A stretch of 64,000 nucleotides of DNA, taken from assembly GCA_014239555.1 (NCBI GenBank), contig JAAZYR010000003.1, positions 1 through 64,000 on the forward strand. The letters are read 5' to 3'. Origin of the DNA: Acidimicrobiales bacterium (GTDB lineage Bacteria > Actinomycetota > Acidimicrobiia > Acidimicrobiales > Poriferisodalaceae). The notes below the pieces were generated by a model. It made no database searches. It worked only from the letters and a program-made list of their open reading frames with translations, and had not been told where the DNA came from. The translations under genes and the position numbers were made by a program. Positions 35,242-63,936 of this stretch are shown piece by piece (within the stretch, counting starts at the first letter, position 1; each line of letters opens with the position of its first letter).

Positions 35242-35854
35242 AAAGACTTCCAGTCCGAATGATGACCGGTTCGGGTTGGGCGTCGGGTGCGTGTTCAGGT
35301 CCGAGCGCTATCTCCGCTCCTCTGCCAGTTGCGTCTCGCCGTTGGGTGAGCTCACCGGTGCGAATTTTTTCATGTAGAGCGAGAATTGCGTGGAGCAGCG
35401 TTTCTGGACCCGGAGGGCAGCCCGGTGCATATATATCGACTGGGACAACTTGGTCGACACCTTGGACAATTGCGTAATTGTTAAACATGCCTCCGCTTGA
35501 CGCGCATACGCCCATGCTGATCACCCACTTGGGTTCCATCATTTGGTCGTATATTTGACGCAGTACTGGGGCCATTTTTTGGCTTACTCGACCCGCGACG
35601 ATCATCAAATCAGCTTGCCGTGGTGATGCGCGGAAAGTTTCCATTCCGTAACGTGCCATGTCGTAATGGGCGGTTGCGGTAGCCATCATCTCGATCGCAC
35701 AGCATGCGAGACCGAACGTGGCGGGCATCAAACTTCGGCGACGTGCCCATTTCACCAGTTCTTCAATGGGAGCGGTGATGATGTTGTGTCCAAGCCCGGC
35801 GAGTCCGTCATCGCCAATACCGAGCTTATGTTTGATCTCGGACAGGTCAGCCAT
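35234..35854 (-). CDS. nuoB: NADH-quinone oxidoreductase subunit B, cluster 2
   Basis: 206 residues. N2 cluster ligands: [18 protein letters not shown] and [10 protein letters not shown]. The amino terminus and the carboxy tail are longer than in the cluster 1 copy. One-base overlap with nuoA. Confidence 0.95.
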
Positions 35855-36330
35855 TACGCCTCCTCTGGATCGTTCGCGCCAACGTCGAGATCAAGTCGCC
35901 CCTCAAGGCCAACTTTGCGAATCGTCGAGTTAGTAGTCCGTTCGGGGCTAGTCGCTGGTGTTAGCAGTCGACGTCCCGGACCCCAGTTGAGGCCACCCTT
36001 TGCAAGTTCGTAGACAAAAGAGAGGAAAAAAATGCCGGCAAAGATCGTCATTGCTACAAGACCAAAGAGTCCTAGTTCGTCGTTCGCCACTGCCCACGGG
36101 TAGAGAAAAATGATCTCGATATCGAACATGATGAAAAGCATCGCTACTAGGTAAAACTTGACTGGGAACCGCTCGGGTATAGCTACTTGGTCCGTAATCC
36201 CGCATTCGTAGGGGGATCTTTTCGCGAGCGTAGGGCGTTCAGGGGCCAGTAGCCGAGAAGCGACGATGCTCAATAGAACGAACAGGACCCCAAGTATCCC
36301 AAGGGTCAGAACAGGGAGATACTGCTCCAT
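35854..36330 (-). CDS. nuoA: NADH-quinone oxidoreductase subunit A, cluster 2
   Basis: 158 residues. The block [22 protein letters not shown] keeps the loop cysteine, and [15 protein letters not shown] follows. A hydrophilic tail of about 45 residues is extra. A GGGGAG Shine-Dalgarno sequence stands 7 nt before the ATG. Only 24 nt separate it from the last gene of the bc operon, so read-through is likely. Confidence 0.94.
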
Positions 36331-36354: not shown

Positions 36355-37173
36355 TCAGCTTCCTGCCGCTTCCCGTATGGCCCATACAGCTTGATCCCGC
36401 CGGTGCAGGTGGTAGCACCCTAAACCAAACACCAAGCCCGAGAAGATCGCTACGAGCGCGGGGCGAAGCCGTAAATTTCCTTGGTCACGAACCATAACGA
36501 CGGTGTAGATAGGCGCTGCTTCGTCAAGTTCGGCAATCGGTAAGGCAACTTTGCCGTCGTCTCCCAGTTTGTTGGGGTCAACGTCTAGTGAGGGCTTGTA
36601 GGGCTGCAGTTGAACTGCGGCATAATGGGGGCGCCCTCGGCTGGGAATAAAGTATTGAGTTATCGTATTGTCGGGAATGCCAAGGGGGCGATAGCGTTCG
36701 CCGCCTACGCGCATCACTCGGTGCACTTGGTAGTCGGTCGCTGCACTGAAAAGGCATGTATTAACGGCTTCTAAACGGCGAGGATCCAGGTCGTTACAGA
36801 CAACCGCGGCGTCAGCCGTTGCTTGGGCATCAGCTTCAATAACGACCTTCCAGCCTGCTTCGGGAGAGGCCGTAATGTCGTTGCCTAATTCTTGGACCAA
36901 ATCGATCGGCACAGCGTCGGGGTTTGTGCTGACGTGGGTGACCTCCCAGGCAGGGCCGTGACCCACCCATCCGATCCCGAAGAACCACCAGACAATTCCC
37001 ATTATCAAGGTCCAGCCCCAAAATCCTGTCCATGCGACTAAGAACCCAAGTCTGACCCCGAGGTTGGTTGCTAACAACAGATACACCGAGCCGCAAAGGA
37101 CTAGCACGGAGAGGAGAACTGCTAAGTAGCCAGTGAGGATCGGGTCCCAGCCGACTAGGGCCATAAGACTCAT
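36355..37173 (-). CDS. Unknown membrane protein at the end of the bc complex operon
   Basis: 272 residues; I do not recognise a family. Two membrane segments lie near residues 12-35 and 40-70 and a third near 237-255, with about 165 residues between them that should be extracytoplasmic. That part has two cysteines (VVCNDLD, NTCLFSA), possibly a disulfide, and a stretch VQLQPYKPSLDVDPNKLGDDG that resembles the periplasmic segment of some cytochrome oxidase accessory proteins only in composition. It overlaps the diheme cytochrome gene by 4 nt, so it is made with the bc complex. It may be an extra subunit or assembly factor. Confidence 0.75.
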   Translation of the reverse strand: MSLMALVGWDPILTGYLAVLLSVLVLCGSVYLLLATNLGVRLGFLVAWTGFWGWTLIMGIVWWFFGIGWVGHGPAWEVTHVSTNPDAVPIDLVQELGNDITASPEAGWKVVIEADAQATADAAVVCNDLDPRRLEAVNTCLFSAATDYQVHRVMRVGGERYRPLGIPDNTITQYFIPSRGRPHYAAVQLQPYKPSLDVDPNKLGDDGKVALPIAELDEAAPIYTVVMVRDQGNLRLRPALVAIFSGLVFGLGCYHLHRRDQAVWAIREAAGS

Positions 37174-38282
37174 TTGTCGTCCTTCGTTCTATGCAGTTCG
37201 GTGAACTGAACGGTGGATTGCTCGGCAGGATCAAGGCTGCGTTCGTATTCTGAGATCGCGCGGATTTCTTCTTCCGAAAGCACTCGCCCAAAGCCCGGCA
37301 TTCCGTAGTTCCCTAACCTGGCGAAGTCACCGTACGCAACGTTGTCAGCAGCGCCGGTGGTAATGAATGAAATTTGATCTTCGATGTCGGGGAATAGCCG
37401 CTCGAGGCTCACCACGTTCAATGCAGGCCCGTAGCGGCCCGATCCGGCTGGACCCGGTACCACGTCAACTTCACCACCATTGTTAGGCAACTGAGCGGCT
37501 CCACGTGCTGGCCAGCGTGGGGTGTGACACCGAGCACAATGAAGTTCGAAAAGTACTTGACCCTCCGTTTTTTCGGGGTGGGCGGTCATCGCTATTTCTT
37601 TGGCCGAAAGAGCTCTGTCGCGCGCTGCTTCATCGGAGATCCGTTCTCGCCAGAGCCAAGCGATGATGTTGTCAACTTCTTGGGCCGTTAATGGTCCGCC
37701 GCCGGGTAGGCCCCATGCGGGCATGACCCCGCGCCCATAATTCAGGATTTGTCGTACTTCATCAACCTCATCGAGGTTTTCGGCGTCGGTGTCAAAGCGG
37801 GCGAAAACTGTGTCTAAGGCGGGCGCGCGCCACGTTGTCTTGACGATGTATGTGTCTTCATCGCTGAACTGGTTCCCTATATCAAGAACTACTGGGGCGT
37901 AATTGGCCCCACCTAAATCAGCTCCGTGGCAAACCACACATTCCAATTCTTCTGCAAGCCGTTCGCCGGCCGCTGCTGCTCGTTCGCCGAACCCTTGCTC
38001 GGCCCCGGAGCGCCTTCCACCTTCGCGCAACCAATAGATCGGTAGCGCCAATGCAATGATTAAAAGCATCAGAACGCCGAAAGCTTGGACTCGTTCTAAA
38101 CGAGATCCTTCGAGAACTTCATCATCTGGTAGAGACCCGCGATTGGCGGCGAGTTCAATTTCGCTACCAACCTCAGATTTGCTTCGACGAATGTTAACGA
38201 AGACATAGATCGCCCAGCCAACAACCACGATGGACAACAGAACCATGGCGATCGAACGCTCGGTGGTCGCAGCATAAATCAC
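37170..38282 (-). CDS. Diheme membrane-anchored cytochrome c of the bc complex
   Basis: 370 residues. A membrane anchor near residues 13-30 and another near 68-85 are followed by two cytochrome c domains with heme motifs CVVCH and CARCH. Methionine ligands are plausible in YGRGVMPAWG and YGMPGFG. The layout matches QcrC-type diheme cytochromes that replace cytochrome c1 in actinobacterial bc complexes. It follows the Rieske gene and overlaps the unknown membrane gene. GTG start. Confidence 0.88.
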   Translation of the reverse strand: MIYAATTERSIAMVLLSIVVVGWAIYVFVNIRRSKSEVGSEIELAANRGSLPDDEVLEGSRLERVQAFGVLMLLIIALALPIYWLREGGRRSGAEQGFGERAAAAGERLAEELECVVCHGADLGGANYAPVVLDIGNQFSDEDTYIVKTTWRAPALDTVFARFDTDAENLDEVDEVRQILNYGRGVMPAWGLPGGGPLTAQEVDNIIAWLWRERISDEAARDRALSAKEIAMTAHPEKTEGQVLFELHCARCHTPRWPARGAAQLPNNGGEVDVVPGPAGSGRYGPALNVVSLERLFPDIEDQISFITTGAADNVAYGDFARLGNYGMPGFGRVLSEEEIRAISEYERSLDPAEQSTVQFTELHRTKDDK

Positions 38283-38337: not shown

Positions 38338-39189
38338 TCAGGCGCAGTGGGGCCCTTCTAGACCTTGGCCCGTGGTATCGGTGCCGATAGGGGGGCCTAG
38401 GGAAGGGCTACCGGTGTCAATGATGACTTTGTCTCCATCGATGATCACCGGGAATCGGTCCATGCCTCTCGGCGCTGGGCCTGCCTTTTTCTCCCCAACT
38501 CGGTTGTATTGGGAGCCATGGCAGGGGCACTCAAACCACTGCGATGTCGAACATGACGGAACTTTGCAGCCGAGATGGGGGCATTTTTGCCACAACGCTA
38601 CGTACCCCATCTTGATGCCTTGCAACACGGTTCCCGAGTAAACGGCTTCGGCGGCTTGTTGTGTTGCAGAGTCCATCGGGTAGGGCTGGAGGTATGTCTG
38701 AGCTTCCGAGAAATAGGAGAAGCTGACAGCCGGGGATGAAGACGCGATGACGTCGTTTACTGAGGAGATAGTCCCTATCTTCACCTTGGAGCCAAACCCT
38801 TTTGTGGGGCGTGGCCAGAGAAATGCGATGTTGGCGGCACCGAATGTCGACAATCCCATAGTCATAAGTGTTATCGACGCGCGATTTAGGAACTGGCGTC
38901 GGGTGACCCCAACTTCCTCAGGGTCGGGCGGGGTCCAGACCTCTGGCATTGTCGGTTCAGGCACCGCTACTTCCGCGCTCACTCGGGCAAGAGCTACCGA
39001 TCGTTCAAGTTCGCGCGCCTCATCACTGACTGGCGGAGCGGACATGGTTTGCGAGTCTCGTTTGCGGGTTTCACGTGACAGATGCCCTAACCCCTGAGCG
39101 TCGCGGCGACGCAGAGACGTGAATCCGACGACCGCCGCGAGGACGACGAGCACTGGAATAGCTATCGCGATGACCATACCGCTTGACAC
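38338..39189 (-). CDS. Rieske 2Fe-2S protein of the bc complex
   Basis: 283 residues. A membrane segment near the start (VIAIAIPVLVVLAAVVGF), a cytoplasmic stretch, then VTRRQFLNRASI before a second hydrophobic segment, which looks like a twin-arginine signal-anchor. The Rieske ligands are CPHLGC and CPCHGSQYN. The frame opens earlier inside the upstream gene; the GTG at 39189 with GAGGAG 7 nt before it is the better start. It carries electrons from quinol to the diheme cytochrome. Confidence 0.92.
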   Translation of the reverse strand: MSSGMVIAIAIPVLVVLAAVVGFTSLRRRDAQGLGHLSRETRKRDSQTMSAPPVSDEARELERSVALARVSAEVAVPEPTMPEVWTPPDPEEVGVTRRQFLNRASITLMTMGLSTFGAANIAFLWPRPTKGFGSKVKIGTISSVNDVIASSSPAVSFSYFSEAQTYLQPYPMDSATQQAAEAVYSGTVLQGIKMGYVALWQKCPHLGCKVPSCSTSQWFECPCHGSQYNRVGEKKAGPAPRGMDRFPVIIDGDKVIIDTGSPSLGPPIGTDTTGQGLEGPHCA

Positions 39190-39200
39190 AGCGCCGCTCC

Positions 39201-39920
39201 TCAGAGGTGAAAGATCCCGTGGAGGCCGGTGTCCCACGGATAGGTGAAGTTGAAACCTTGGCCTCTAAAGAACGAGCCAATTATGACAAGCACTGCCCAG
39301 AACATGAGATGGATGGTCTGGATTGAGATCGCGAACTTGCGATCCTCTGGTGCATTAGAAGGATTACGGTCAATGTAGGGAGCGAATGCCAACAACACCA
39401 ACACAATGCCTGGGATGGTGACCCCCGCAATCATCGGGTCGAACATCGTCAATAATTCTTGCAGCCCCAAAAAATACCAGGGTGCTTTAGAGGGATTGGG
39501 CGTTGCGTTGTGGTTTGCTAACTCAAGTAGCGGGGCATTGATGAAGATGGAGAAAAGCGTGACGAATGCCGTTATAAAAAGCGCGGACGTGAATTCTGCT
39601 GCGAGAAGGTGCGGCCATACGTGGACTTTGTCACCTGGGTTAGCTTTAACGTCCTGAATTGAACCTGATTTTACGACGGTCAGTAGTCGATGGGTGTTAC
39701 CGCTCGGACCGGCCATCGCTGGGGGTGCAATGGTTGCTACGCCCCCGCCTGAAGGTGCCGCTGCTCCGCCCTGTTGGCTTTGCTCTAATAGTGAACGAGG
39801 GATGGTTTCGCCATCGTCATCTGAAGTTTCGGCACTGGACGCAGCAGGAGTGACGTCGCCGTCGGCCTTTGCCTTCGCTTCTTGGCTTCTTTTTAAAAGA
39901 TGTTCAGGGATTTCGGTCAT
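39201..39920 (-). CDS. Cytochrome b subunit-IV-like carboxy-terminal subunit with cytoplasmic extension
   Basis: 239 residues. The last 150 residues have three membrane helices and KAPWYFLGLQELL, the equivalent of the PEWY loop of the quinol oxidation site. The first 85 residues are hydrophilic and Ala/Ser/Gly rich and begin MTEIPEHLLKRSQEAK, with a second copy-like segment ETIPRSLLEQSQ near 45. The same motif opens the monoheme cytochrome c on the other strand. I use the ATG at 39920; the earlier open frame would overlap cytochrome b. Confidence 0.9.
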   Translation of the reverse strand: MTEIPEHLLKRSQEAKAKADGDVTPAASSAETSDDDGETIPRSLLEQSQQGGAAAPSGGGVATIAPPAMAGPSGNTHRLLTVVKSGSIQDVKANPGDKVHVWPHLLAAEFTSALFITAFVTLFSIFINAPLLELANHNATPNPSKAPWYFLGLQELLTMFDPMIAGVTIPGIVLVLLAFAPYIDRNPSNAPEDRKFAISIQTIHLMFWAVLVIIGSFFRGQGFNFTYPWDTGLHGIFHL

Positions 39921-39942
39921 GGACCTGCTCGTACTCCTCGAC

Positions 39943-40737
39943 CTAGAGCGGACCGGAGATGCCGCCGTCTTTGCGAACTCTCCAAAAGTGAATCGCCAAG
40001 AATATGACGAGGACAAAGGGAAGCATCAAAACGTGCAAGACGTACCAACGCAGCAATGTTTCAGCGCCGATCTGTTTGCCTCCCAAAAGGACAAACCGCA
40101 CTTGGTCTCCGAACACGGGGGTAAAGCCCATCATGTTGGTACCCACCGTTACCGCCCACAGGGACAACTGATCCCATGGAAGGAGATACCCGGTAAACGA
40201 CAGCAACAGGGTGAGTTTGAGGAGCATGACTCCGATCACCCAGTTGAATTCGCGCGGTGCTTTGTAAGCCCCGTGGTAAAAAACCCGGGCCATGTGTAAG
40301 AAGACAGAAAGCACCATGAGGTGCGCACCCCATCTATGCATATTCCGCACAAGCAGGCCGAAACTAACCTGCGTATGTAATGACTCGATGTCACTCCACG
40401 CAGCGGCGGCGGTGGGGCGATAGAAGAACATCAGGAATATGCCAGTAATTGTCAGCAAAATAAATAGAAAGAAACTCAATCCACCTAGACAGAGTGTGTA
40501 GCTGACCTTTACGGCGTGGCGCTTTACCTTCACAGGGTGGAGGTGGTAGAGCACGCTGTTCATCACGACGTAAGAACGATTTCTGGGGCTGTCCGTATAA
40601 CCCTTCCTAAAGATGGAGCCTGGGCGAAAGACTGAGGTCCAGAACTGACTCGCTTGCATCCAGTCAGCTGCAGCGGTTGCGCCTTGTTGCAGTTTCTCTG
40701 GTAGCGACTGGTTTGACTTTTCTATTGAGTTAGCCAT
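39943..40737 (-). CDS. Cytochrome b6-like subunit of the bc complex
   Basis: 264 residues. Four core membrane helices. The two heme pairs are seen as NMHRWGAHLMVLSVFLHMARVF and RWYVLHVLMLPFVLVIFLAIHFW. GYLLPWDQ is the standard helix D loop. The split into a b6-like and a subunit-IV-like gene is of the b6f type, unlike the fused QcrB of mycobacteria. About 70 hydrophilic residues precede the first helix. Confidence 0.93.
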   Translation of the reverse strand: MANSIEKSNQSLPEKLQQGATAAADWMQASQFWTSVFRPGSIFRKGYTDSPRNRSYVVMNSVLYHLHPVKVKRHAVKVSYTLCLGGLSFFLFILLTITGIFLMFFYRPTAAAAWSDIESLHTQVSFGLLVRNMHRWGAHLMVLSVFLHMARVFYHGAYKAPREFNWVIGVMLLKLTLLLSFTGYLLPWDQLSLWAVTVGTNMMGFTPVFGDQVRFVLLGGKQIGAETLLRWYVLHVLMLPFVLVIFLAIHFWRVRKDGGISGPL

Positions 40738-40755: not shown

Positions 40756-41172
40756 TCAGAGTCGCATGCCGTAGGCGTAGCCGTGGGTGTGGGTACGGCT
40801 GTGAGTATCCCCTTCAGCCGGTGGGTTGTCGACCACTTTGCCGAGTGTGATGACGCCGGTGGGGCATCGGTCAACGCACAGAGCGCAGCGAGTACACACA
40901 TCGTCATCGATGATGAAGATTGCGTTATCAGTCGGGTCAAGGCCAGGGAGATCGGCGTCGATTGCCTCATCGATTGCCTCGACCGCTATGTAATGTATGC
41001 ATTTCCAGGGACAAATATCGACGCATCCTTCACATTGGATGCATTCGGACTGATCGATATTGATGAATTGTTTGGGCTTAACCGCCGCCGCTAAGTAATC
41101 CGCATCGACTGTTTGTAATACGTAGTCGTCAACAAATCGAGGCATTGGCGGATTTGCTTCTGTCTTGGCCAT
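40756..41172 (-). CDS. 2[4Fe-4S] ferredoxin in the bc operon
   Basis: 138 residues with CIQCEGCVDICP and CTRCALCVDRCP and a spacer of about 30 residues between them. No membrane segment and no signal, so it should be cytoplasmic. It lies between the first gene of the operon and cytochrome b, with 1 and 18 nt gaps. A ferredoxin is not a usual bc subunit; it could deliver electrons to the complex, or be the donor of the EFG-less complex I. This is inferred from position. Confidence 0.9.
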   Translation of the reverse strand: MAKTEANPPMPRFVDDYVLQTVDADYLAAAVKPKQFINIDQSECIQCEGCVDICPWKCIHYIAVEAIDEAIDADLPGLDPTDNAIFIIDDDVCTRCALCVDRCPTGVITLGKVVDNPPAEGDTHSRTHTHGYAYGMRL

Positions 41173-41173
41173 G

Positions 41174-41611
41174 TCAGTTGCCCTTCATTAGTGGGCGACC
41201 GAAATCAGAGATGGGCTCAGCAACAACTTTTTTCTGGTCTCTCTTCTGCCACCACATCCAGAGGAAAGGCAGTCCGGCAAGAACAACGATGTGTTCAATC
41301 ACGACGACAATGTCCGAAACTTTTTTCAGATCCATGCGCATTGGCGGGAAAGTGATGGGGCTCCCGCCAATAAATTGGCCTTCGGTGAAGAGCATGCGCT
41401 CGACAGACCAGCCCCATTCGTTGTCGGTTAAACGCACCCATCGGTCCGGGACGACGCCGAACGCCATAAGGAGGAGCATGAATACGAATGCTGCTCCGAG
41501 CATCGCTTCGCCCCAGGAAGTGGGGCGATCAATGGGTCTGCGTTTCCCGTACGCGATGATGGCGTAGACCATAAGAGCTGTGATCAGGATTGATGTCACA
41601 AGTGCGACCAC
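41174..41611 (-). CDS. Unknown membrane protein, first gene of the bc operon
   Basis: 145 residues; no family recognised. Membrane segments near residues 2-20, 35-55 and 98-118, with a loop of about 40 residues (VVPDRWVRLTDNEWGW ...) between the second and third and a Lys/Arg-rich end. The start is GTG with GGAGG 4 nt upstream. It is translated ahead of the ferredoxin, one base apart, and is probably part of the bc complex or its assembly. Confidence 0.75.
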   Translation of the reverse strand: MVALVTSILITALMVYAIIAYGKRRPIDRPTSWGEAMLGAAFVFMLLLMAFGVVPDRWVRLTDNEWGWSVERMLFTEGQFIGGSPITFPPMRMDLKKVSDIVVVIEHIVVLAGLPFLWMWWQKRDQKKVVAEPISDFGRPLMKGN

Positions 41612-42001: not shown

Positions 42002-42775
42002 GTGACCGAAGTTCCTGAATACCTATTCGAGCGTTCACGTCAGAGACGTATCGACCTTGGTCTGCTCGATGACGATGGCAGCGGCGGTGCTCCCGCCGCG
42101 AGTGGAGCTTCAGAGGGCGCGGCACTAGCTAGCTCGGGGCCGAGCAGCGCCGATGTGATCGCTGCGGCGAAAGCCGACGCGAAACTTGAAATCCAAACGG
42201 AGTCTGGGATTGAACCGGTTTGGGTTTCGGCGGCACGGAGCCGGACCAGGATCCCGATGTGGGCACTTCCTGTCATGTTTTTCCTACCTTTGTGGGCGTT
42301 CGTGTATGTCAAGCTCACTGAACCACCCCCTGAGCCAGTGACTGCCATCACTGAGGGCGCTGCTACTTACGCGGCGCGTTGTGCAAGTTGCCACGGTGGA
42401 GCGGGCGCAGGGAGCGAGGGCGGCGGCGTCGGGCGTCCCCTTTACAACGGCGAAGTCTTGCTGACCTTCCCCAAACTTGGGACCGACATGTTGTATTGGC
42501 TTGAGGTCGGCTCTGAAGGTATCGGGATTGGTAACGCCTACGGCGCTACTGATCGGCCCGGAGGGGCTCACATTTCTGGTGAGACCGGAGCCAATATGCC
42601 AGGTTTTGGTGGGCCATTGAGCGAGTACAAGATCTATTCAGTCGCTCGATATATCCGCGAAGTGTTGAGCGAAGAACAAATCAGCGATGAAGAAATCGCT
42701 GCACGTGACGCCGAGTGGGAAGATCTTGGAGGCGGCAAGGACCTCGGTGGCGGGGGCCATAGCGGCGGTCACTAG
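42002..42775 (+). CDS. Membrane-anchored monoheme cytochrome c
   Basis: 257 residues. A hydrophilic start MTEVPEYLFERSRQRR, then about 60 Ala/Ser-rich residues, a single membrane segment (WALPVMFFLPLWAFVYVKL) near 82-103, and a cytochrome c domain outside with heme motif CASCH and a Met ligand in ANMPGFGG. The amino-terminal motif matches that of the subunit-IV-like protein of the bc complex. GTG start with GGAGG. It is divergent from the bc operon and may carry electrons from it to a terminal oxidase that is not in this window. Confidence 0.88.
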   Translation: MTEVPEYLFERSRQRRIDLGLLDDDGSGGAPAASGASEGAALASSGPSSADVIAAAKADAKLEIQTESGIEPVWVSAARSRTRIPMWALPVMFFLPLWAFVYVKLTEPPPEPVTAITEGAATYAARCASCHGGAGAGSEGGGVGRPLYNGEVLLTFPKLGTDMLYWLEVGSEGIGIGNAYGATDRPGGAHISGETGANMPGFGGPLSEYKIYSVARYIREVLSEEQISDEEIAARDAEWEDLGGGKDLGGGGHSGGH

Positions 42776-44147: not shown

Positions 44148-45410
44148 TCAAAGAGAAGCTGCGCTTTCGGCTGCGGCACCAATGACAGTGTCAACGACAT
44201 CTTCTGTATGAGCTAGCCCAACAAATAGCGCCTCATATGCTCCGGGTGCCATTGCTACGCCACGGTCAAGCATCTCGTGAAAGAAGCGGGCGTAAGCTTT
44301 TTCGTCGGTTGTTCGGGCTTCGTCATATTGAGTGGGAGCATTGTCTCCGAGGAAAAGGCCGAGAAGTGACCCCACACGTGGAGCTATTGCTGGCAGGCCA
44401 GCGTCGTTCAAAACCTTTTCGATGCCGGCGCCCAGTCGTTCGGTCATGGCGTAGAGCTTCTGATAGGCCGCTGAATCCAAAAGTTGTAAGGCCGCGCGGC
44501 CTGCCGCGGTTGCGAGCGGATTACCTGAAAGCGTCCCTGCTTGGTAGACAGGCCCGACGGGGGCGAGCGTGCTCATTATTTCTTGAGATCCTCCGAAAGC
44601 TCCGATTGGGAGCCCCCCTCCAATGACTTTGCCGAAACAAGCAATGTCAGGAGTCACTCCAAACCATTCGGATGCCCCGCCGCGGGCAAGGCGGAATCCG
44701 GTAATCACTTCATCGAAGATCAGCAGGGCTCCGGCGGCGTCGCAGGCTGAACGCAATTGAGGTAGGAATCCCTCCAGTGGTGCGATGAGACCCATATTTG
44801 CCGCCACTGGCTCCACGATTACGCACGCATGGTCTTGGGTGATTTCGGGCACTGCGTTGTACGGGGCGACGACGGTGTCCGCGACGGCGGAGGAGGGAAC
44901 GCCTGCCGAACCCGACAAACCCAGGGTGGCGACACCACTTCCGCCTGCCGCGAGAAGCGTGTCAGCGTGACCGTGGTAACAACCAGCAAACTTGATTACG
45001 CGGTTCCTGCCGGTGTGGCCGCGGGCGAGCCGGATAGCACTCATAGTTGCTTCGGTCCCGCTATTCACAAGTCGCAGCTGTTCAATACCAGGGACGCGGC
45101 TTACGATTTCTTCCGCTAACGATATCTCTCCGGGGGTGGGCGCTCCGAAAGAAGTTCCCAAAGCGGCTGCTTTCTGAATAGCTTCTGTGACTTGGGGATG
45201 AGCATGACCTGCTATCACCGCTCCGTAAGACTGAACTAGATCGATGTATTCGCGTCCTTCGGCGTCGTACACATGGGCCCCTTCTCCCCGAACTACGAAG
45301 TAGGGGTCGCCACCAACAGCTTGGAACGCCCTCACCGGCGAATTCACCCCCCCAGGGATGAGTGCCTGAGCATCACGAAAAAGCTGGCGGTTGGTTTGTG
45401 AACCCAACAT
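44148..45410 (-). CDS. hemL: Glutamate-1-semialdehyde 2,1-aminomutase
   Basis: 420 residues, PLP enzyme that makes 5-aminolevulinate. FRDAQALIPGGVNSPVRAF at the start, the conserved EPVAANMG, FDEVITGFR, and the PLP-lysine in CFGKVIGGGLPIGAFGG. I use the ATG at 45410 (MLGSQTNRQLF) with GGAG upstream; the frame is open 13 codons further. It is downstream of hemA, hemC and hemD on the same strand. hemA and hemL together show the C5 route. Confidence 0.95.
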   Translation of the reverse strand: MLGSQTNRQLFRDAQALIPGGVNSPVRAFQAVGGDPYFVVRGEGAHVYDAEGREYIDLVQSYGAVIAGHAHPQVTEAIQKAAALGTSFGAPTPGEISLAEEIVSRVPGIEQLRLVNSGTEATMSAIRLARGHTGRNRVIKFAGCYHGHADTLLAAGGSGVATLGLSGSAGVPSSAVADTVVAPYNAVPEITQDHACVIVEPVAANMGLIAPLEGFLPQLRSACDAAGALLIFDEVITGFRLARGGASEWFGVTPDIACFGKVIGGGLPIGAFGGSQEIMSTLAPVGPVYQAGTLSGNPLATAAGRAALQLLDSAAYQKLYAMTERLGAGIEKVLNDAGLPAIAPRVGSLLGLFLGDNAPTQYDEARTTDEKAYARFFHEMLDRGVAMAPGAYEALFVGLAHTEDVVDTVIGAAAESAASL

Positions 45411-45482
45411 GTTCTCCGATCGTCTCAGATGCGTTAGGTGTTGTTGCATCCTACGACTAGCTACGGCAAGGCGATGGTGGAG

Positions 45483-46151
45483 TTAAATCTGGCCAAACAA
45501 TACGTCGAGCAACGCGTCGGGCGGCATCTCATCCAGCGTTTCCAACCGGGCATATGCACCAGAAAAGTCGAGTGATGTAACTAACGGATTTGGCACCACC
45601 ACAGTTCTTATGCCTGCCGCTAACGCCGCTTTCAGTCCGTTAGGGCTGTCTTCCACTACAGCGGCCGCAGTCGCTTCTACTCCCAACAGTTTGAGGGCGT
45701 GGAGGAAGACGTCGGGAGCGGGTTTAGCGACCTCACCTACATCGTCACGGCACACGATGTATGAGAATTTTTCGTACAGCCCGACTCGTTTGAGATGCTG
45801 ATCTACCCACGCGTGAGGCGAGCTAGATCCGATAGCTGTAGCAATCCCTCGACATGCCGCGGCGTCAAGAAGCTCTGTCACGCCAGGAAGGACTGGTTGG
45901 TTTTCTGTCATCTCATTTTTTATCCGCTGACGCGTTTCCATAATCAGGTCCTGATCTAAGACCTGCCCGACGCGGTTTTCCAGTTCTTGTACCCAACTTT
46001 GTTTCCGGTCGGTTCCCATCCCTGCAAGCCACCAGTCCATCGGGAGCTCAACGCCGTAATCTGCCCAGATCTGCGCAGTTGATTGACATGCCGGGGTCTC
46101 TGTGTCCAGGACGGTCCCATCGAAGTCAAGAATCAGCGCGTGGGAACTCAT
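45483..46151 (-). CDS. HAD-superfamily phosphatase, beta-phosphoglucomutase/phosphoglycolate phosphatase type
   Basis: 222 residues. Motif I in LILDFDGTVLDTE, a helical cap, motif II in AIGSSSPHAWV, motif III and IV in VAKPAPDVFLHAL and VVEDSPNGLKAALAAG. It overlaps the hemD end by 4 nt, so it is made with the heme enzymes. Substrate unknown. In many actinobacteria hemB stands near this place; hemB is not in the window. Confidence 0.82.
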   Translation of the reverse strand: MSSHALILDFDGTVLDTETPACQSTAQIWADYGVELPMDWWLAGMGTDRKQSWVQELENRVGQVLDQDLIMETRQRIKNEMTENQPVLPGVTELLDAAACRGIATAIGSSSPHAWVDQHLKRVGLYEKFSYIVCRDDVGEVAKPAPDVFLHALKLLGVEATAAAVVEDSPNGLKAALAAGIRTVVVPNPLVTSLDFSGAYARLETLDEMPPDALLDVLFGQI

Positions 46152-46906
46152 CTTTGGCCCGCCGCTAACGCCACGGCCTGGACAAGTCCGTCTACTGATC
46201 GTTCTTCCGCAACAAATGTCACGCTGACACCTAGGCGCTCACATTCTCGAGCCGTCGTCTCACCAATAACCACTACCTTCGCAGCGCTCCTACCACCAGT
46301 TTGTTTCAAGTGTCCATCCACTGCTGATGGCGATGCAAAAGTGACCACATCTGCATCAATGGCTTCGGAAACTAAATCATGGTTAAGTGACGGACACACC
46401 GTTCGATATGCAGCTACGCCATCAACTTGCCATCCTCTGGCTCGAAGTCCGTCAATAAGATCCGTTCGACCGTCCGATGCCATGGGGATTAGAACACGAT
46501 CATCGGGTTTCGGGTTTGGAAAAGCTTTGGCTAACGAAACCCCGTCGTGACGCACCGGTATTAGATCGGGTTCTCGTCCCATCTCTAAAGCGACCTTTGC
46601 TGCTGTTGTCGGCCCCACTACCGCAATCTGAAGATGCGAGAACCTTTTAAGAACTCCTCGTCGTGCGCCTCGAGCCATTAACGCCGCCACTGAGTTAGTT
46701 GAAGTGAATGCAACCCATGAGAACCGTTCCAAGCGGATGAGGGCATCATCCAACGGCTGTCCTCCGTCTAATGGAGGCACTACCGCTATTGCGGGCGCAG
46801 CGACAACCTTCGCACCGGCATCAGACAAGGCTTCGATCAGACCCGAGCTTTGGTGCGAGGCACGGGTTACCACCACAGACTTTCCTTCAAGCAGCTGAAA
46901 GCTCAA
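46148..46906 (-). CDS. hemD: Uroporphyrinogen-III synthase
   Basis: 252 residues, poorly conserved family. LEGKSVVVTRASHQSSGLIEAL, WVAFTSTNSVAALM, VVGPTTAAKVALEMG, VVTFASPSAVDGHL and VVIGETTARECERLG follow the order seen in HemD. It closes the tetrapyrrole ring. Position after hemC with a 4-nt overlap makes the call firm. Confidence 0.92.
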   Translation of the reverse strand: MSFQLLEGKSVVVTRASHQSSGLIEALSDAGAKVVAAPAIAVVPPLDGGQPLDDALIRLERFSWVAFTSTNSVAALMARGARRGVLKRFSHLQIAVVGPTTAAKVALEMGREPDLIPVRHDGVSLAKAFPNPKPDDRVLIPMASDGRTDLIDGLRARGWQVDGVAAYRTVCPSLNHDLVSEAIDADVVTFASPSAVDGHLKQTGGRSAAKVVVIGETTARECERLGVSVTFVAEERSVDGLVQAVALAAGQR

Positions 46907-47799
46907 GAGCTGGCTCCGTTGATCGATAGGAGGGCGCGTCCGCCCTTGGCTAGAAGTTCCTCAGCGACAGCTTTCCCCAAAGCATCAGCGTCCTCACCCC
47001 GTTTCTGGGTGCGCAACACAGTGGTGCCATCTCTCGCGGCAAGCACGGCAGCAAGTTGGATAATCCCTTCTTCCAGATACGCATAAGCTCCGACCGGTAA
47101 CTCACATCCGCCACCCAGTTCCGCTAAGAACGCCCGTTCAGCTTCGACACAACGTCTTGTCGCGTCATCGGATATCCCCAGCAGTTGTTCGTTGATGGCC
47201 AGGTCGTCATCACGACACTCCAACGCAATAGCACCCTGGCCTACTTGAGGGATCATTTCTTCAACACTGAAGACCTCCGCTGCAGAACCGGTAAACCCAA
47301 GGCGCTGTAACGCCGCCATTGCAACAATTACCGCGTCAACATCGTCACGTTCTGCGACGGCGATGCGTGTTTCCATATTGCCTCGCAGCCCCGTGAATTT
47401 CAGATCTGGTCTCATATGCGCGAGTTGGGCTTGTCGCCGAGCCGAACCAGTCGCGATTCTCGCTCCCTTCGGTAGCTGGCTGAGATTCATCCCTATCAGC
47501 GCGTCACGAGGGTCACCTCTTTCCAAAAAACCGGCGAGATTGAGACCGGCAGTAGGGGACGACATCAAATCTTTCGCGCTATGCACCGCAAGGTCAGCTT
47601 TACCCTCTAGGACCGCCAGTTGCACTTCTTTGACGAAAACACCACGCCCCGCCATTTCTCGGATTTGCCGTGTCCGGTCTTGGTCGCCTTCGGTCGCTAC
47701 CATCAAAAATTCGACATCAACGGCGCTCGACGCTAAACGATTAGCAACAGCCTCTGCTTGCCAGCGCGCCAAAGGACTCGATCGTGTCGCAATGATCAC
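46903..47799 (-). CDS. hemC: Hydroxymethylbilane synthase (porphobilinogen deaminase)
   Basis: 298 residues. ATRSSPLARWQAEAV at the start, HSAKDLMSSPTAGL, ATGSARRQAQL, and the cofactor-binding cysteine in LGGGCELPVGAYA. GTG start. Builds the linear tetrapyrrole from four porphobilinogens. Twelve nt after hemA. Confidence 0.95.
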   Translation of the reverse strand: MIIATRSSPLARWQAEAVANRLASSAVDVEFLMVATEGDQDRTRQIREMAGRGVFVKEVQLAVLEGKADLAVHSAKDLMSSPTAGLNLAGFLERGDPRDALIGMNLSQLPKGARIATGSARRQAQLAHMRPDLKFTGLRGNMETRIAVAERDDVDAVIVAMAALQRLGFTGSAAEVFSVEEMIPQVGQGAIALECRDDDLAINEQLLGISDDATRRCVEAERAFLAELGGGCELPVGAYAYLEEGIIQLAAVLAARDGTTVLRTQKRGEDADALGKAVAEELLAKGGRALLSINGASS

Positions 47800-47811
47800 G
47801 GAGACCCTCGC

Positions 47812-49068
47812 TCAAAGGTCAAAGAGGTCGCGAACCGAGTCTGCAAGACGGTCACCCTTTGCTGATCCTGCGGCGTCTTTCAAGGCAGCCGTGGGTTCGT
47901 GAAGAAGCTTGGCCACAAGACCACGGGTGAACTGATCAAGAGAAGCACGATCTGAATCCGAGTAACCGGCCTTTCGTGCAAACTTGTCTACTTCTTGGAG
48001 CCGCTTTGCTTCAACCGCTCCTCGCATCGACGCTATGAGCGGAGCTACTTCCCGAGCAGATCGAACGTCAGCGAACCGTTTTGCCTCAGACTCAACTATC
48101 AGTTCAACGGTCTCCACCTCATTTGCACGTTCCATCCGACCGTTAGCGGCGAAGCTGGACAGATCGTCCATATCGAGAAGGGTGACTCCATCGATTTGAG
48201 CTACCTCAGGGTCGATATCTCGGGGCATTGCGATATCGACAATGAGCAACGGCTCACCTGCTCGTCGCGCAATGACCTCGGCGATGGAAGTGTTGTCAAG
48301 AATTACTTCTGTAGCTCCAGTGGACGTCATCAACACGTCGACGTCGCCCAACGTTTCACCCAAGTTTTCAAGCGGTATCGAGGAACCATCGATTCGCGCA
48401 GCTAACGCATCAGCTTTGGAGGTCGTGCGATTGGCTACATAAACATGATCGGGTCCGGCGGCGGCCAGAGCAACAATCATCCCTTCCCCCATTTCCCCTG
48501 CTCCAACGACGAGCACTGTTCGACCGATCAAGCTTCCGAAATGTTCTGTCGCCATCAAAACGGCGGCGTGAGAAACTGACGCTGTGTGTCGGCCGATCGA
48601 ACTTTCGTTACGCGCACGCTTGCCTGTTTCTACCGCGTGACGAAAGAGAAGGTTCAGAACCGCTCCAGAGGTGCTTTCAAGGCGTGCTGTTTCCCATGAG
48701 GTTTTTATTTGGCCTTGGATTTCGGACTCACCCAGTACCGCCGAATCAAGTCCCGATGCCACCGAAAAAAGATGCTTTACGGCATCGTCGTCATAATGCA
48801 CGTACAAACAATCGGATATGTCTTCGGGCGCCACAAAAGCGGACTCTGCAAAAAAGTCACGTACTTCGGCATACGCTGCATGGAATTTTTCTGCAACAAC
48901 GTAAGCCTCGGTCCGATTACAGGTCGACACGATGACGGCTTCACTGATGTGATCGCGTTGACTGAGCCCCGCCAGGTTTTTTGGGAGATCGTCCGCGCTA
49001 ATGACGGACTTCTCCAATAGCTCCAGCGGAGCACTCCGGTGATTCAAACCAATAACGACGATGGACAA
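47812..49068 (-). CDS. hemA: Glutamyl-tRNA reductase
   Basis: 418 residues. GLNHRSAPLELLEKSV, the catalytic cysteine in IVSTCNRTEAYVV, SVASGLDSAVLGESEIQGQIK, and the NADPH site VVGAGEMGEGM are present. The start appears to be TTG. It starts the heme gene group and commits glutamyl-tRNA to tetrapyrroles, needed here for the many cytochromes. Confidence 0.95.
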   Translation of the reverse strand: MSIVVIGLNHRSAPLELLEKSVISADDLPKNLAGLSQRDHISEAVIVSTCNRTEAYVVAEKFHAAYAEVRDFFAESAFVAPEDISDCLYVHYDDDAVKHLFSVASGLDSAVLGESEIQGQIKTSWETARLESTSGAVLNLLFRHAVETGKRARNESSIGRHTASVSHAAVLMATEHFGSLIGRTVLVVGAGEMGEGMIVALAAAGPDHVYVANRTTSKADALAARIDGSSIPLENLGETLGDVDVLMTSTGATEVILDNTSIAEVIARRAGEPLLIVDIAMPRDIDPEVAQIDGVTLLDMDDLSSFAANGRMERANEVETVELIVESEAKRFADVRSAREVAPLIASMRGAVEAKRLQEVDKFARKAGYSDSDRASLDQFTRGLVAKLLHEPTAALKDAAGSAKGDRLADSVRDLFDL

Positions 49069-62546: not shown

Positions 62547-63086
62547 ATGCCCAACCAGTGGAGACGACCTTTAATTGGTGCACTCGCCATTTACGTCGTT
62601 GCTGCGTCAGTGTTCCTAGTGACAGGTAGGGGAGGCTCCCAAGACCAGCTCGAACCAAAAAACACAGGACAAACATTTAACCAAGGTCTGTATTCGTTGG
62701 AGTTCACGACATTAGACGGGGTAAAAACTTCTTTTGCCGACTACGCAGGGGCCCCACTTATTGTCAATTTTTTTGCCTCCTGGTGCACCCCATGTGTCAA
62801 AGAGATGCCCGATTTCCAGCAGCTATACGAACGTCACGGTGAACGGTTCCAAATACTTGGACTTGCTGTTGAGGGCCAGCGTCCAGCACGTCAAATTGTT
62901 GAGTTAACAGGCGTTACATACCCCGTAGGGTTGGACGACAGTGACCTCCTAGTAGAACTCGGCGGGGTGGCAATGCCAACTACCGTCTTTATCTCAAAAC
63001 AAGGTGAGCTCCTCGAAAGCCACAGTGGCGTACTCACTTATTCAAATCTGATCTCTCGTACAGAAAAACTTTTTAGTAATGAATGA
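62547..63086 (+). CDS. TlpA/ResA-like thioredoxin, membrane-anchored
   Basis: 179 residues. An uncleaved-looking amino-terminal membrane segment (LIGALAIYVVAASVFLVTG), then a thioredoxin domain with FFASWCTPCVKEMPDF and the cis-proline in AMPTTVFI. It acts outside the membrane to reduce apocytochrome c cysteines or other thiols. It overlaps the ccdA-like gene by 8 nt, which supplies electrons to it. Confidence 0.9.
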   Translation: MPNQWRRPLIGALAIYVVAASVFLVTGRGGSQDQLEPKNTGQTFNQGLYSLEFTTLDGVKTSFADYAGAPLIVNFFASWCTPCVKEMPDFQQLYERHGERFQILGLAVEGQRPARQIVELTGVTYPVGLDDSDLLVELGGVAMPTTVFISKQGELLESHSGVLTYSNLISRTEKLFSNE

Positions 63087-63936
63087 CGTCAACCTGGCTT
63101 TCGCCTTTACCGCAGGCATCGTCGCCACCATCAACCCTTGTGGCTTTGCGATGCTCCCTGCATACCTCTCCTACTTTCTGGGCATTGAGGCAAACTCCGA
63201 TGGGACTCGAGGGGCAAGCATTGCTCGCGCACTCACCACAGGGTCCACTGTTTCTCTGGGATTCTTGATGGTCTTTGGAGTCGCCGGCGTATTAATTTCG
63301 GCGGGTCTGACGGCTATCCGAGAAGTAATTCCTTGGGTCGCCGTTGCAGTAGGCCTGGCCTTGGTGATTTTAGGCACCGCCGTAACTGCTGGTAAACGTA
63401 TCGACTTAGCGATGCCAAAATTCCAAAGGGGGACTGGGAGCAAAGACCTGCGGTCTCTGCTCCTTTTTGGTGTTTCTTACGCTGTGGCATCAATCTCGTG
63501 CGGGCTTCCCACCTTTATCGTCGTGGTTTCCACCTCAGTTAACGGTTTCCGCTCTGGGTTGCTTGCGTTCCTCACTTATGCCTTAGGCATGGCGATCACA
63601 TTGCTCTCGTTGACCGTAAGTTTGGCCTTAGCGCGCTCTTCTTTCCTTGAAAAATTACGCTCCCTGGTTCGGTTCGTTGATCGAGCGTCCGGATTGTTAA
63701 TGGTTCTAGCTGGCATTTATCTAGTCATGTACTGGCTAACTGAACGCGCTGGCAGTCGAACAAATTGGTTCATCGACGCGATCGAAAACTGGAGCGCGAA
63801 TCTAAGTAACACGATCACTGATCTAGGAGGGGTACGCACCGGGGTTCTTCTTAGTGTGGTCCTAGCCCTTGGCCTCATCGTCTGGTTGATTCAATTTGAG
63901 CCTGCGTCATCAGATAGCTCACCTGAGAGACTGTAA
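63079..63936 (+). CDS. ccdA: CcdA-like thiol-disulfide transporter (cytochrome c biogenesis)
   Basis: 285 residues with about seven membrane helices. The two redox cysteines are in TINPCGFAMLPAYLSYFLG (first helix) and SISCGLPTFIVVV (fourth helix). It passes electrons from cytoplasmic thioredoxin across the membrane. With the TlpA-like gene it forms the reducing arm of cytochrome c maturation, in keeping with the c-type cytochromes in this window. An extra helix and short tail follow the core. Confidence 0.9.
   Translation: MNDVNLAFAFTAGIVATINPCGFAMLPAYLSYFLGIEANSDGTRGASIARALTTGSTVSLGFLMVFGVAGVLISAGLTAIREVIPWVAVAVGLALVILGTAVTAGKRIDLAMPKFQRGTGSKDLRSLLLFGVSYAVASISCGLPTFIVVVSTSVNGFRSGLLAFLTYALGMAITLLSLTVSLALARSSFLEKLRSLVRFVDRASGLLMVLAGIYLVMYWLTERAGSRTNWFIDAIENWSANLSNTITDLGGVRTGVLLSVVLALGLIVWLIQFEPASSDSSPERL

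Follow-up and report, generated by a model that had tools for sequence, protein, structure and literature searches.

The window analysed here is a stretch of 64,000 nucleotides from an Acidimicrobiales bacterium, in which a gene cluster for a cytochrome bc complex is followed by the operon of complex I. Between the two lies a gene for a membrane protein of 272 aa. The genes and features of this region are:

41174..41611, minus strand: unnamed membrane protein of 145 aa, first gene of the cluster
40756..41172, minus strand: two-cluster 4Fe-4S ferredoxin, conserved in the cluster
39943..40737, minus strand: split cytochrome b6, ExtP-like (PF00033; NF040969 with 303.6 bits, cut-off 290)
39201..40016, minus strand: subunit IV, petD/ExtQ-like (PF00032; NF040970 below its cut-off)
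38338..39237, minus strand: Rieske iron-sulphur subunit (PF00355)
37170..38282, minus strand: diheme cytochrome c with a membrane anchor, part of the bc complex and constant neighbour on the upstream side (PF13442/PF00034, two stretches)
37170..37173, minus strand: ATGA overlap between the stop codon of the cytochrome c gene and the start codon of the gene in question
36355..37173, minus strand: the gene in question, a 272-aa three-helix membrane protein with ATG start and without a family name
35854..36330, minus strand: nuoA, with which the complex I operon begins after a gap of 24 nt (PF00507)

The earlier note on this DNA had described the gene without giving its strand; the ORF lies at 36355-37173 of the minus strand. 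It overlaps the diheme cytochrome c ORF (37170-38282) by exactly 4 nt (ATGA) and ends exactly 24 nt before the start of nuoA at 36330, so both distances reported before are right to the nucleotide. In pairwise comparisons with near relatives, the dN/dS of the gene is 0.093 (vs L039) and 0.099 (vs L041), and 4 other comparisons had no usable dS (1 with N, 3 with saturated dS). The ORF is a real gene under purifying selection and more than a product of chance. A search of the 24-nt gap for terminator-like sites found none, so that read-through of transcription from this gene into the nuo genes is plausible.

Some other genes of the region deserve description. The ferredoxin gene (40756-41172) stands between those of the 145-aa protein and b6, a place that is kept across classes of Actinomycetota, and it would be unusual for a bc complex to have a ferredoxin of its own. 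The 145-aa membrane protein had no Pfam match above cut-off; it is conserved with the bc cluster in the class and more weakly outside. A gene for a membrane-anchored monoheme cytochrome c (42002-42775, plus strand) diverges from the bc cluster, and 11 of 22 loci of the class, all of them from the window's own order, have a homologue at this divergent position. Near the bc cluster, at 44148-49068 on the minus strand, are genes which we take by eye, from their motifs, to be hemL, hemD, hemC and hemA; a convergent gene, presumably hemL-like by eye, follows the cluster in several loci of other classes and of other orders of the class. The gene at 63079-63936 (plus strand) presumably codes, again by eye, for a CcdA-like membrane protein, possibly a part of cytochrome c maturation.

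Hydropathy gives the 272-aa protein three helices, at about residues 17-35, 43-61 and 238-256, and leaves about 165 residues beyond the membrane between helices 2 and 3, which bears out the three helices and the large external domain of the earlier description. The parts of the protein, with its two external cysteines, are:

37069..37125, minus strand: helix 1, residues 17-35, from hydropathy
36991..37047, minus strand: helix 2, residues 43-61, from hydropathy
36466..36966, minus strand: external (extracytoplasmic) domain, residues 70-236, the least conserved part
36796..36798, minus strand: C126, first cysteine of a probable family-specific disulphide
36754..36756, minus strand: C140, second cysteine of the probable family-specific disulphide
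36406..36462, minus strand: helix 3, residues 238-256, from hydropathy

To compare relatives, we used 119 distinct sequences from 164 matches, after identical sequences, those containing X and those under 200 aa were dropped. Among these, 108 have three helices, 10 have four and 1 has two. The loop between helices 1 and 2 carries a conserved TNxGxRxG motif and a net positive charge, and it is probably cytoplasmic. Since this loop (mean K+R 1.16 across the relatives) and the C terminus (3.85) are more basic than the N terminus (0.70), the charges suggest that the N terminus and the external domain are probably outside, and the loop and the C terminus inside. Helix 3 is preceded by R229-D230-x-G232 and followed by H257-R-R-D. 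Within the external domain, alignment columns 77-228 amount to 104-249 residues among the relatives. Structure prediction had been proposed as a check, and AlphaFold2 did give models, which were too weak for use: the mean pLDDT was 51.6 for the whole protein with 20 close sequences and 48.8 for the external domain alone, because only close sequences entered. Foldseek with the first of them, the low-confidence model of the whole protein, found nothing at E<=0.001 (best 0.19).

Matches to the protein at E<=0.001 were found in 53 of 61 near genomes, in 273 of 394 genomes of the class and, with profile A1, in 107 of 396 genomes of the phylum. The contig scan of close relatives gave 21 loci, each with a title that names Acidimicrobiales, Acidimicrobiaceae, Candidatus Microthrix or another actinobacterial MAG, and the plasmids searched had no match. 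The survey covered Actinomycetota genomes, this one contig scan and plasmids, and the range of the protein may be wider. For the window protein, no Pfam family was found at E<=1, and there was no match in NCBIfam or PHROGs. Pfam searches with 15 members of profile A1 gave weak and inconsistent matches only (best E 0.12), and profiles A1 and A4 had no meaningful match among PDB sequences (best E 0.18 and 0.23). No profile of a known oxidase or bc assembly family in Pfam or NCBIfam matched above cut-off, which agrees, together with the PDB sequences, with the earlier view that the large external region is unlike known bc subunits. It does not look like cytochrome f either, having no CxxCH and no apocytochrome f match in Pfam at the limits used. 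The 145-aa membrane protein of the cluster resembles the 272-aa protein in outline, but profile comparison (E 0.055-0.093, probability at most 1%) led us to reject homology between the two. The literature searched, which mostly did not extend to subscription papers, yielded no description of the protein.

A lineage-specific addition appeared inside the external domain of 3 of 32 relatives from other classes (L145, L166 and L156), where the Pfam family Biotin_lipoyl matched with 26.3-29.2 bits (cut-off 22.1). NCBIfam searches with 10 distant relatives likewise gave nothing except the lipoyl-type matches of L145. These relatives with a Biotin_lipoyl-type barrel, from two families of other classes, are located at:

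L145, 6846-7925
L156, 5686-6810
L166, 5260-6342

By eye, the lysine to be modified is replaced by glycine, and the addition therefore appears to be a structural barrel. Nothing of this kind occurs in the window protein.

The conservation of the protein is concentrated in its membrane part. The columns conserved in at least 85% of the 119 sequences are G15, G28, L34, N37, G39, R41, G43, G53, W62, G68, G71, P74, W76, D230, G232, F249 and L256, and all of them sit in helices 1-2, just past helix 2 or around helix 3 (G39 100%, W62 99%, G232 99%, W76 96%). Mean pairwise identity is 0.455 in helices 1-2 and 0.394 in helix 3, against 0.229 in the external domain. The best-conserved histidine is H257 (73%), the best cysteine C27 (50%), and methionine reaches 66%; no heme or Fe-S ligand is conserved as a core redox subunit would require. 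A conserved metal or heme ligand is thus unlikely, and the protein is probably not redox active, because no His, Cys or Met is near-invariant.

The two external cysteines had been regarded as distinctive, and their conservation had been suggested as a check. It turned out that they are not conserved: C126 and C140 are always found as a pair, never one alone, and the 29 of 119 relatives that have them all belong to the window's own family. Of the 119 external domains, 68 have no cysteine and 51 have exactly two; after clustering at 60% identity, the counts are 43 of 65 and 22 of 65. In the other 22 relatives the pairs fall into ten further positional classes. As there are always 0 or 2 cysteines at shifting positions, the pairs read as structural disulphides that were gained and lost, without a conserved active site, and this pattern supports the extracytoplasmic place of the external domain. 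Two more cysteines of the window protein, C27 and C253, lie within helices 1 and 3.

The position of the gene beside the bc genes is nearly invariant. It comes directly after the diheme cytochrome c gene in all 22 loci that were read from the class, as the tight linkage claimed in the earlier note would have it. As a rule the order runs from the 145-aa membrane protein through ferredoxin, b6, subunit IV, Rieske and cytochrome c to the 272-aa gene, and the departures from it are missing members at contig ends, one locus in which no ferredoxin was found (L089) and one in which no subunit IV was found (L096). A wider set has 38 usable loci, 37 of which contain the gene; the remaining one (L174) is from a genome that lacks it. 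In 36 of these 37 loci the gene directly follows cytochrome c, and at the last (L146) the contig starts inside the gene.

For the phylum, we compared the presence of the gene with that of b6 of the split, ExtP type, which was accepted at 284 bits or more (112 genomes), a threshold set by the score gap below 284; 104 genomes exceed the NCBI cut-off of 290. Of 396 genomes, 107 have the gene and 112 the b6, with 103 containing both, 4 the gene only, 9 b6 only and 280 neither (Fisher p about 1e-78, uncorrected for the relatedness of genomes). Most of the genes (91 of 107) share contig and strand with b6 and lie 2284-4060 nt downstream of it, and the two of the 16 separated cases that were read (G140 and G077) are contig breaks inside the cluster. 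The 13 exceptions were inspected. In four b6-only genomes (G484, G611, G636 and G705) a deeper profile found the gene after cytochrome c, which raises the count to 107 of the 112 b6 genomes. The clusters of the other five are cut or gapped: in G499, G600 and G616 the contig stops short of the gene's place, in G563 a run of N stands at this place, and in G539 the cluster breaks off after petD. A search of these five whole genomes with the window protein gave a best E of 0.22. Among the genomes with the gene only, the b6 ORF of G449 and G745 is partial or broken, and contig ends cut the clusters of G522 and G737. As expected of a bc component, the gene shares its locus with the core bc genes even in distant lineages, and it is present with the complex and absent without it.

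The link to complex I is much narrower. The next gene is nuoA in 15 of 22 class loci, and nuoA is absent at that place in the other 7 (L086, L089, L090 and L095-L098). In a further locus of the class from the wider set (L158), nuoA lies within 300 nt after the gene, and in the 31 loci of other classes (L137-L156, L164-L173 and L176), with lengths of 4-14 kb, no nuo gene was found. The conserved nuo linkage that a complex I subunit should show is therefore missing, and the earlier view that the protein goes with both complexes alike is not supported. The nuo adjacency is a class-level arrangement, because the bc link persists in the loci of other classes without nuoA. The partner of the 272-aa protein is the bc complex and not complex I.

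Considering the co-distribution and the fixed place, we regard it as very probable that the protein is part of, or devoted to, this bc complex. Its role within this frame is most reasonably a lineage-specific accessory, non-redox subunit of the actinobacterial split-b (b6/subunit IV) bc complex, a reading that we consider likely. The main rival is a factor dedicated to the assembly or maturation of this complex and not retained in the finished enzyme; it might, for instance, keep apocytochrome c in place while heme is attached, or insert the head of the Rieske protein. Such a factor would have the same linkage to the bc genes, and linkage alone does not separate it from a subunit. The poor conservation of the external domain would suit it too, as would some neighbours: the gene directly after the bc cluster of L149 and L154 is, as we take it by eye from its motifs, ResA/TlpA-like, with a presumably ResB-like gene further on in L149, and presumed ResA- and CcdA-like genes come after a scaffold gap in L179. 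The ResA/ResB-like neighbours of L149 and L154 fit a maturation role as well. However, no assembly family matches the protein, the lack of the external cysteine pair in 68 of 119 relatives argues against a thiol factor, and the membrane segments are the best conserved ones, which is what packing as a subunit would lead one to expect. The conserved membrane part and the want of an enzyme-like site lead us to prefer a subunit, and we consider an assembly factor rather unlikely.

A linker that holds the bc complex and complex I together as a supercomplex could be imagined from the 24 nt before nuoA here and from the 15 class loci with nuoA next, but nuoA is not next in 7 of 22 class loci and in 31 of 31 from other classes, and the adjacency to cytochrome c stays throughout (in L146 the contig starts at the gene). 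These nuoA-free loci rule out a Nuo linker as the general role, and such a linker is very improbable. It is more improbable still that the protein itself transfers electrons through heme or thiols, using the two external cysteines or His257. H257 at the end of helix 3 occurs in 73% of the relatives, but it is lost in other classes; the window protein has no CxxCH; and the cysteine pairs shift position and are missing from the external domain of the 68 relatives, by which a disulphide or thiol redox role is ruled out. There is also a bolder reading, in which the conserved 7-gene set makes a distinct bc complex that also exchanges electrons with a cytoplasmic ferredoxin. Here the 272-aa protein, without heme, would serve as a docking module above the heads of the Rieske protein and cytochrome c and do the scaffold job of cytochrome f, with the diheme cytochrome c as the electron part. 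It cites the lipoyl-like barrel gained in one branch, a fold that cytochrome f carries, and we consider it improbable.

As an accessory subunit, the protein could work as follows. The hairpin of helix 1, loop and helix 2 would pack, together with helix 3, against cytochrome b/subunit IV or the anchor of cytochrome c. The variable external domain may then cover the heads of cytochrome c and the Rieske protein, as its topology suggests, and might steady these heads or form a docking surface towards the oxidase. The protein would carry no electrons itself. As the bc and nuo operons are joined in this class, complex I would probably be co-transcribed, and the protein would still be no part of it.

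Complex III has a three-subunit core with lineage-specific extras, which are known mainly from mitochondria and mycobacteria. The accessory subunits of the mycobacterial III-IV supercomplex (LpqE, PRSAF1, CtaI and CtaJ) likewise add membrane or external parts without redox function to a bc complex of actinobacteria; unlike that supercomplex, the complex of the window is of the split-b type, and no PDB chain gave a meaningful match. In the bc operon of Thermus, the unnamed membrane protein FbcX adjoins the cytochrome c gene, a likeness to the 272-aa protein in genomic place only and at the level of description; a literature search for the word fbcX found no paper.

With b6 (NF040969 over cut-off), subunit IV and Rieske, the cluster of the window is of the same kind as the b6f-like, split-b bc complexes. 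The available text of PMC3578206 reports split cytochrome b in many non-phototrophic bacteria and an operon of three genes, whereas the cluster here adds a constant ferredoxin, two unnamed membrane proteins and a diheme cytochrome c. The extHIJKLMNOPQS cluster of Geobacter encodes a Rieske protein (ExtO), a cytochrome b (ExtP) and a membrane protein (ExtQ), and two neighbours of the gene in the window have the ExtP and ExtQ profiles as their best NCBIfam matches. The available text of its description (PMC5877670) names no counterpart of the 272-aa protein and gives multiheme cytochromes where the window cluster has a diheme one.

In conclusion, an unnamed membrane protein goes hand in hand with a b6f-like bc complex in several actinobacterial lineages, including marine Acidimicrobiia, and the cluster of this complex also carries a ferredoxin gene. 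The protein is a concrete target for purification and cryo-EM, and a gene family without a Pfam or NCBIfam name is given a functional context.
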